A DNA stretch of 64,000 nucleotides from the NCBI RefSeq assembly GCF_014201715.1, contig NZ_JACHFD010000017.1, positions 1 through 64,000 on the forward strand. Direction: 5' to 3'. Below are positions 50,101 through 55,134 of the stretch, piece by piece. The stretch is from Haloferula luteola. GTDB taxonomy: Bacteria; Verrucomicrobiota; Verrucomicrobiia; Verrucomicrobiales; Akkermansiaceae. A program made the translations under genes and the position numbers. The notes beneath the pieces are model-generated. The model saw nothing but the letters and a program-made list of their open reading frames with translations, ran no database searches and was not told where the DNA came from. Numbering within the stretch: the stretch's first letter is position 1; the number at the start of each line of letters is the position of its first letter.

Positions 50101-50121
50101 ACGCCTTCCGGCCGAACTCTC

Positions 50122-50143
50122 AAAACTGAATATTAGCAAACTC
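50122..50143 (+). repeat. Leader motif shared by atpA and atpD (copy 1)
   Basis: AAAACTGAAT (50122-50131) and TAGCAAACTC (50134-50143), then an ATGAGCA start, recur upstream of atpD at 53636-53665. No Shine-Dalgarno sequence is present in either leader, so the shared bases may serve initiation or regulation. Confidence 0.5.
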
Positions 50144-50148
50144 TCGTC

Positions 50149-51802: not shown

Positions 51803-52699
51803 ATGGCCAACCTCCGCGACATCCGCCGACGCATCAAGTCGGTCAAAAACACCGCCCAAATCACGCGGGCGATGCAGCTCGTCGCTGCGGCCAAGATGAA
51901 GAAGGCGCAAGACCAGGCCGTCGCCGGCCGGGACTACGCGGATCTTCTCAATCAGGTCTTGGTGAACCTGAAGGAGAACGTGAACGAGGAGGCCCATCCG
52001 CTCCTCGAGCAACGTGAGGGTGGCAAGGAACTCGTGTTGGTGATTTCCACTGACAAGGGGCTTTGCGGTGCCCTCAATACCAACCTCGGGAAGAAGATCC
52101 GGGCAGAGGTGTCTCCCGACGCCGATTTCGTGACCGTGGGTCGCAAGCTTCGTCAGCAGCTTTCCAAGGCGGGCCGCAATATGGTGGCCGACTTCGAGGT
52201 GAAGGACCCGGTTCCGTTCGCGGAAGCACGCCCTATCGCAAAGCTCCTGACCTCTCTCTTCCTGGAAGGGAAGTACGACAAGGTGAGCGTCGCCTTCAAC
52301 AATTTCGTCAGCACCCTGGTGCAAGAGCCGATGGTGGTTCAGCTGTTGCCGATCAGCGCAGCGGCCTTGGGTGAGAAGCAAGATTATGAAGGCGTGGGCC
52401 GTGGACGGGTTGGTGAGACCGATCATGCTGCAGCCCTGTCGAAGGACTACCTGTTCGAGCCGAGCCCAGAAGGCGTGTTGAACACTCTGTTGCCGCTCTA
52501 TGTGAACTTCCAAGTTTACCAGATGCTGGTGGAAAGCCGAGCATCCGAGCACTCCGCCCGGATGGTGGCGATGAAGGCAGCGACGGACAATGCGAAGAAG
52601 TTCATCAAGGAACTGACTCTCGAATACAACAAGCTGCGCCAGGCTGCGATCACTGCCGAACTGCTGGAAATCACCACTGCCATGAAGGCGATGGAGTGA
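51803..52699 (+). CDS. atpG: F1 ATP synthase gamma subunit
   Basis: A 298-residue rotor-shaft protein. The conserved N-terminal coiled coil is ANLRDIRRRIKSVKNTAQIT and RAMQLVAAAKMKKAQ, STDKGLCGALNTNLGKK forms the Rossmann-like part, and the C-terminal helix ESRASEHSARMVAMKAATDN and ELTLEYNKLRQAAITAELLE is clear. The ATG at 51803 gives the standard start; 21 upstream codons look unrelated. Two lipoprotein genes interrupt the order before atpD. Confidence 0.96.
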   Translation: MANLRDIRRRIKSVKNTAQITRAMQLVAAAKMKKAQDQAVAGRDYADLLNQVLVNLKENVNEEAHPLLEQREGGKELVLVISTDKGLCGALNTNLGKKIRAEVSPDADFVTVGRKLRQQLSKAGRNMVADFEVKDPVPFAEARPIAKLLTSLFLEGKYDKVSVAFNNFVSTLVQEPMVVQLLPISAAALGEKQDYEGVGRGRVGETDHAAALSKDYLFEPSPEGVLNTLLPLYVNFQVYQMLVESRASEHSARMVAMKAATDNAKKFIKELTLEYNKLRQAAITAELLEITTAMKAME

Positions 52700-52721: not shown

Positions 52722-53108
52722 ATGAAACTTGCTCAATTGCTCATCGTTCCGGGCCTTGCACTAGGCTTGTCGAGCTGTGGTGTCACCAGCGATCGTCGCG
52801 GGGAGCTGCATTCGGTTCCGGCAGCCAAAAGTGTCACTCTCACTCAGGACGTCTCTTGGGGAGATGGGTTTTGGAAGAAGAAGTTCACCTTCCCAGCGGG
52901 CCAGTACCATGCCCGTTACGAGAGCCCTAAAGGCTACTTTTACGAGTATCCGGACAGCCTGCAGGTCTTCGACTCTGGCATGCGCTACGGCAAACGCGGC
53001 GGCCTCTACCTGAAGAAGGGTGAGAGTGCTCCTACGCGCTGCTATATCGATGCTTACTTTGACGGTGCCGCGATCTTGGATCCCGGTGAGCCCCTGCCCG
53101 TCCGCTAA
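52722..53108 (+). CDS. Lipoprotein within the atp operon (1)
   Basis: A 128-residue exported lipoprotein with signal peptide and lipobox LSSC near residue 18 (IVPGLALGLSSCGVTSDRRG). The mature part has VTLTQDVSWGDGFWKKKFTF, ARYESPKGYFYEYPD and GGLYLKKGESAPTRCYIDAY, a small beta-rich domain that I do not recognise. The ATG at 52722 is used (a TTG at 52716 is in frame). It starts 22 bases after atpG and is followed 17 bases later by a second lipoprotein gene, an uncommon interruption of an ATP synthase operon. Confidence 0.75.
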   Translation: MKLAQLLIVPGLALGLSSCGVTSDRRGELHSVPAAKSVTLTQDVSWGDGFWKKKFTFPAGQYHARYESPKGYFYEYPDSLQVFDSGMRYGKRGGLYLKKGESAPTRCYIDAYFDGAAILDPGEPLPVR

Positions 53109-53125
53109 TTTTTTCTCCCCACCGA

Positions 53126-53629
53126 ATGATGTCACCTTTCCGCTTGCTGACTGCTGCTTCTCTCGTCGCCACCATGGCGATGACCAGCTGTGCCACCGTT
53201 TTCAATCGCCCCGTGCAGCCGGTCAAAGTGACCAGCGAGCCGAGCGGGATGAGCTTCACCGTCAAAACGCCCGATGGGGAAGTGGTGGGCCAAGGCGTCA
53301 CCCCTGGGGAAGTTCGGCTGAAGACCTCTTCTGCCTATTTTCGCCCCGCAACCTACCAGTTCGAGTTCCGTCGCGGTGGGAAGTTGATCGGCACCCGCAC
53401 CCTCACGGGTGAACTGAGTGGCTGGTATGTCGGAAACGTGCTCATTGGTGGTCTGATTGGCATGATCGTCATTGATCCACTCTCCGGCGCGATGTTCACC
53501 TTGCCGAACGACGTTCACCAATCGGGAGCGCCGCTGGCCTCCATCGAGATGACAGAGGGCCGGTCCCTCGCCGTGGTCTCGATTGACACTTTGTCTTCCG
53601 ACGAACGGGCTCGCCTCGTACGACTTTAA
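53126..53629 (+). CDS. Lipoprotein within the atp operon (2)
   Basis: A 167-residue exported lipoprotein with lipobox MTSC at about residue 22 (LVATMAMTSCATVFNRPVQP). The mature region begins with a PEGA-like beta unit (VKVTSEPSGMSFTVKTPDGE, VVGQGVTPGEVRLKTS), then a Gly-rich hydrophobic stretch (VGNVLIGGLIGMIVIDPLSG) that could be membrane-associated or bury in another protein. SCATVFNRPVQPVKV resembles small tRNA-like or IgaA-type lipoproteins only loosely. It sits between the first lipoprotein and atpD, whose leader starts about 6 bases after its stop. Confidence 0.78.
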   Translation: MMSPFRLLTAASLVATMAMTSCATVFNRPVQPVKVTSEPSGMSFTVKTPDGEVVGQGVTPGEVRLKTSSAYFRPATYQFEFRRGGKLIGTRTLTGELSGWYVGNVLIGGLIGMIVIDPLSGAMFTLPNDVHQSGAPLASIEMTEGRSLAVVSIDTLSSDERARLVRL

Positions 53630-53635
53630 GACCTG

Positions 53636-55134
<1,499 letters not shown>

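Follow-up and report, generated by a model that had tools for sequence, protein, structure and literature searches.

The junction between atpG (gamma subunit) and atpD (beta subunit) of the F1Fo ATP synthase operon repeatedly holds lipoprotein genes from unrelated families in one clade of the family to which Haloferula luteola belongs. Few gene sets are considered as well conserved as ATP synthase operons. We favor, with modest confidence, the reading that this junction is a clade-specific slot that selection fills with outer-membrane lipoproteins, cotranscribed with the ATP synthase but not themselves subunits of the enzyme. No earlier report of lipoproteins between atpG and atpD was found in the open-access literature.

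Genes between atpG and atpD

In the window analyzed here (64,000 nt), the atp operon extends from atpB (47835) to atpC (55645) on contig 17 of the draft genome. The gene atpG (51803..52699, plus strand; PF00231, E 8.4e-93 at 51809-52693) is followed on the same strand by two intact ORFs, P1 (52722..53108) and P2 (53126..53629), and then by atpD (53671..55134), which is conserved across all compared operons. The spacers are 22 nt between atpG and P1, 17 nt between P1 and P2, and 41 nt between P2 and atpD; P2 has an alternative second ATG at 53129. The initial annotation had described two lipoprotein genes at this position with spacers of 22 and 17 nt, and the ORFs and their coordinates agree. 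The lipoboxes it had named, LSSC and MTSC, likewise pass a rule in the style of PROSITE PS51257 (a positively charged N-terminus, an uncharged h-region, and a lipobox Cys at positions 15-35), giving plus-strand signal peptides through Cys19 in P1 (52722..52778) and Cys22 in P2 (53126..53191).

A scan of the gap in the window revealed neither terminator-like sites nor plus-strand promoter-like (sigma-70-like) sites, the promoter scan being weak for this phylum, and an Rfam search for structured RNA in the atp region gave no match. The leader of atpD (53630..53670, plus strand; CTGAAAACTGAATCACTGAACACTAGCAAACT) is G-poor and resembles both the leader of atpA (50101-50148) and the 3' arm of inverted repeats found in many empty gaps of relatives (see below). 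Codon-usage likeness to atpA/atpD is 0.52 for P1 and 0.54 for P2, compared with 0.61-0.78 for the atp genes, four of which are included in the reference itself. In eight of nine other operons, every scored atp gene has a higher value than the slot genes; the slot gene of G217 exceeds two of five. The low codon adaptation of the slot lipoproteins gives no sign of strong expression and speaks against a very high level; it would fit either moderate expression or recent membership in the operon.

Occupancy of the junction in the host family

PF00231 was located in part of the host family and in sampled genomes of the phylum, and the downstream regions were fetched. In the host family, 117 genomes allowed the atpG-atpD gap to be measured, and in 15 of them it is longer than 200 bp. 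As the initial annotation had expected, the junction is usually uninterrupted: the gap is 200 bp or less in 102 of 117 genomes, with a median over all of 70 bp. Fourteen of the 15 longer gaps contain one or two intact lipoprotein genes on the operon strand, and the last (280 bp) contains a short lipobox-bearing ORF of 66 aa that is probably a remnant. P1 and P2 occur together in the window genome (G000) and in G232, DUF4410 (PF14366) with P2 in G178, P2 alone in G228, G250, G288 and G248, and DUF4410 alone in G210, G302, G234 and G294. The remaining slots hold a weakly BamE-like protein (G230), a 106-aa protein (G217), and a PEGA-like protein just under the cut-off (G246), which, judged by its hydrophobic stretch, could be a remote P2 relative. 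Three more occupied genomes were reached by other routes, G194 (P1 and P2, at a contig end) and L205 and L209 (P2), bringing slot P2 to ten genomes, all in the same position; DUF4410 is found in five relatives.

BLAST comparisons among the slot proteins detected likeness only between P2 copies and between DUF4410 copies; P1, P2, DUF4410 and three other groups are mutually dissimilar. At least five unrelated lipoprotein groups occupy the slot. The arrangement is compact, the first lipoprotein usually starting 21-38 nt downstream of atpG, and in G232 the ATG of P1 overlaps the atpG stop codon. Because the position is common to other genomes and all inserts in the slot are lipoproteins, the arrangement reflects more than chance. 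It is also more general than the initial annotation stated: confinement of the lipoproteins to this strain, without a conserved position, would have counted for the annotation as a refutation, and P2 recurs at the same place in ten genomes. Chance or an assembly artefact was ruled out by recurrence in independent assemblies, including that of the isolate Luteolibacter marinus, whose slot holds P2.

Searches of the empty gaps by tblastn for remnants of lost lipoproteins gave no convincing match. About 20 empty gaps, roughly 85-135 bp long, contain an inverted repeat that could fold into a hairpin. In the L085-L144 set (for example G204, G239 and G275), many empty gaps, of about 119 bp, are filled by inverted repeats of short heptad-like units (for instance CACTGATCACTGATCACT or CTGAAAACTGAAAACT), and similar units recur as G-poor leaders directly 5' of the atpA, atpD and atpC starts. 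The hairpin and the lipoprotein genes may be two alternative ways of adjusting gamma-beta expression.

Among 47 genomes outside the host family, no slot lipoproteins were found. Four gaps in this set exceed 200 bp: two hold four-helix-bundle-type genes, a third holds a PEP-CTERM-like gene in antisense orientation, and the fourth is without a gene. The 1001-bp atpG-atpD gap of G166 (L021) carries a PEP-CTERM-like gene of 230 aa, read from the opposite strand. Four-helix-bundle-type genes are present in atp gaps of other families of the class (atpG-atpD in L024 and L188; atpA-atpG in L022 and L024), most of them lying between inverted repeats of heptad-like units (GGCTGAA / TTCAGCC).

The P2 and P1 lipoproteins

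P2 is a 167-aa PEGA-like lipoprotein of a widespread family. Its predicted model (pLDDT 84) comprises a beta-sandwich at residues 30-97 (53213..53416, plus strand) and a strand at residues 129-133, with a Gly-rich hydrophobic helix at residues 99-115 (53420..53470, plus strand) between them. The Gly-rich hydrophobic stretch reported in the initial annotation thus corresponds to a predicted helix that follows the sandwich; alignments (A1 and A3) show W100, G103, N104, G108, G109 and G112 to be invariant, and the helix may dip into the membrane. The predicted sandwich may have a PEGA / transthyretin / CnaB-like fold, as suggested by the model and by PEGA matches in relatives; VIA-align scores it at Z 6-7 (maximum 7.0) against many beta-sandwiches, an arrangement that is widespread among proteins. 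The PEGA-like unit proposed earlier holds at the level of the family, in which 18 of 36 members match PF08308 (best E 5.3e-6). P2 itself has no Pfam match, with none to PF08308 up to E 10 and none to PF14366 above the gathering score. P2 does match PHROG 6823 (phrog_6823, 2e-23). It is like the PEGA lipoproteins (PF08308) and PHROG 6823 in its predicted beta-sandwich and lipobox; unlike PEGA lipoproteins, it escapes detection by PF08308 and has the Gly-rich helix and a C-terminal extension.

Relatives of P2 are found in Pseudomonas, Acinetobacter, Vibrio, Bacteroidota, Nitrospirota, other Verrucomicrobiota, and phages. No conserved partner was detected within 3 kb at 71 loci of relatives outside the host family. 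One relative is gene 15 of Salmonella phage epsilon34 (L345:4986-5405), by the mnt-arc-ant region. A role in defense or in phage biology was considered and rejected: PADLOC gave no match, and PHROG 6823 carries no functional assignment.

P1 is a 128-aa lipoprotein from a Verrucomicrobiae family that lacks a Pfam model; it has no Pfam match, PF14366 included. Its predicted model is all-beta (pLDDT 78), with no convincing Foldseek match to a known fold and VIA-align Z scores of at most 2.9, a lack of structural matches that does not establish a new fold. The DUF4410 lipoproteins that share the slot are unrelated in sequence to P1 and P2. Relatives of P1 occur in four other host-family genomes, with weak ones in other families. 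In all five host-family genomes with P1 the gene lies beside P2 on the same strand, in the order P1-P2 in the slot (G000, G232, G194) and P2-P1 elsewhere (G243, G266), and the two proteins probably act as a pair at the envelope. For the distant P1 relatives in other families, P2 was absent from the flanks fetched.

Other junctions and operons

Inserts longer than 200 bp are absent from the atpD-atpC gap in 86 family genomes (Fisher p 2e-4) and from the atpA-atpG gap in 30 (p 0.04). In the nuo operon of 20 host-family genomes we found nine inserts, none of them a lipoprotein and all of them small "filler" genes, which by eye we take from their sequences to be four-helix-bundle or GxxExxY-like. 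The nuo fillers are located in L306, L308, L316, L319, L320, L321 and L323, and most lie within matching inverted-repeat arms. Across the inserts compared, such arms are present on both sides of 11 of 13 fillers and of 0 of 14 slot lipoprotein inserts (shuffle p 0.15-1).

In the S10 region we found an antisense ORF and, in G199 (L292), a lipoprotein-like insert. This insert is an ORF of 170 aa that follows the last ribosomal gene and precedes another conserved gene, presumably secY. Other long gaps in the S10 region appear to be conserved genes missed by the reference set, such as those we take to be rpmC and adk, or shared spacing. With a lipoprotein-like insert in a ribosomal operon, the preference may not be confined to atp. 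The background of lipoprotein-like ORFs was 11 of 788 (1.4%), a rough rate estimated from the fetched regions with a crude ORF caller; at that background, the chance of a lipoprotein-only slot is ~1e-9, assuming about five independent entries. We count about five or six independent entries, fewer than 15 because many occupied genomes share descent; multiplying the background over every copy would exaggerate the contrast.

Evolution of the slot

In a tree of AtpG and AtpD, every occupied genome belongs to a single clade with support 99, in which 18 of 86 rows are occupied. Occupancy switches 16 times across the tree, and at least 13 of the switches lie on starred branches. In the P2 tree, a branch of modest support (76/73) sets the ten slot copies apart, and a group of eight among them has 96/89. 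Since the slot copies group together, a single entry of P2 followed by frequent loss is likely; P2 probably entered before the clade diversified. Recombination within the flanking atp genes may also have led to exchange. Where P2 lies elsewhere in the chromosome (for example in G243, G266, G293 and G307) the slot is empty, and no matched genome contains two P2 copies. Pairs of P2 have dN/dS values of ~0.16-0.35 and one DUF4410 pair ~0.16, indicating purifying selection on both.

Interpretation of the lipoprotein slot

The initial annotation had left open whether the lipoproteins are linked to the ATP synthase itself or to its expression. This caution was justified, and the evidence now leans to a shared place and expression, because the families are interchangeable, are absent from most relatives, and include P1 and P2 genes located elsewhere in the genome. 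Under the reading that we favor, the gamma-beta junction would be tolerant of insertion in one clade of the family, and selection would load it with genes for outer-membrane lipoproteins. P2 would have come first; P1, DUF4410 and other lipoproteins would then have joined or replaced it, and most descendants would have lost P2. We infer that the slot genes would be transcribed together with the atp genes and translated from start sites of their own, cotranscription keeping the supply of lipoprotein in step with growth and energy metabolism. The products would be exported, lipidated and anchored in the envelope, P1 and P2 perhaps as partners, and the beta domain and Gly-rich helix of P2 may make further envelope contacts.

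Neutral hitchhiking, in which the junction is tolerant and lipoproteins are merely the genes most often gained and lost, with no benefit from atp expression, seems to us unlikely. Low codon adaptation, the patchy occupancy on the tree, and P2 relatives that stand alone in unrelated neighborhoods would all suit it, but insertable nuo junctions of the same family take fillers and no lipoproteins, several unrelated lipoprotein groups converge on a single slot, and P2 and DUF4410 are under purifying selection. We regard it as very improbable that the lipoproteins are ATP synthase accessories that contact Fo from the periplasmic side or hold the enzyme to the envelope. Their location within the operon and predicted membrane anchoring are compatible with such a role; against it, the constant presence expected of a subunit was not found, most relatives with conserved operons leaving the slot unfilled, unrelated families are interchangeable, P1 and P2 also occur far from the atp operon in genomes with an empty slot, and in Pseudomonas, Acinetobacter, Vibrio and phages P2 is likewise found away from atp genes.

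The lipoprotein character of the slot is constant and the protein family is not, and this observation suits two further readings. We give a rather small chance to the broader one, that the junction is selected for any lipoprotein, such that the class is kept and not the family; the nascent chain might recruit the atp mRNA, and with it F1 synthesis, to the membrane, or the gene might couple envelope biogenesis to ATP synthase output. Still less probable is the narrower one, in which the signal peptide matters more than the product: a lipoprotein translated in the middle of the operon would draw the atp mRNA to the membrane, and beta would be synthesized next to Fo. Against it, the mature sequences are conserved and subject to purifying selection, the message already includes two genes for membrane proteins, atpB and atpE, and most relatives manage without a slot lipoprotein. 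The least credible explanation is that the slot genes are mobile fillers bounded by palindromes, comparable to the four-helix-bundle and GxxExxY-type genes that other operons of the phylum contain. It could draw on the many empty gaps with a ~119-bp inverted repeat and on the sequence resembling a 3' arm that the window retains before atpD, but it is already disfavored by the lack of matching arms on both sides of any slot insert.

Relation to known systems and implications

The genes atpI and atpR lie at junctions other than gamma-beta and encode inner-membrane accessory proteins, and to our knowledge no extra gene of this type is a lipoprotein gene between gamma and beta. Both exemplify non-subunit genes within F1Fo and N-ATPase operons (PMC4154653, PMC5709465). 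A review of atp loci (PMC4154653) describes them as unsplit in Verrucomicrobia and, for Chlorobi, Bacteroidetes, Cyanobacteria and Aquificae, places a split at the gamma-beta junction; that the locus splits at this junction in several other phyla favors our reading of it as a slot. In Methylacidiphilum fumariolicum, an abundant small lipoprotein, WP_009060351, has been proposed to link the outer membrane and peptidoglycan (PMC10260701). We liken it to the slot lipoproteins by description, as a functional analogy only, and the abstract of that paper claims no atp-operon context.

That one junction repeatedly takes one class of protein, lipoproteins, from unrelated families while the nuo operon takes mobile fillers is a regularity for models of expression and localization to explain. 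Close relatives with occupied and empty slots, including cultured Luteolibacter (L. marinus, L206), constitute a natural experiment.
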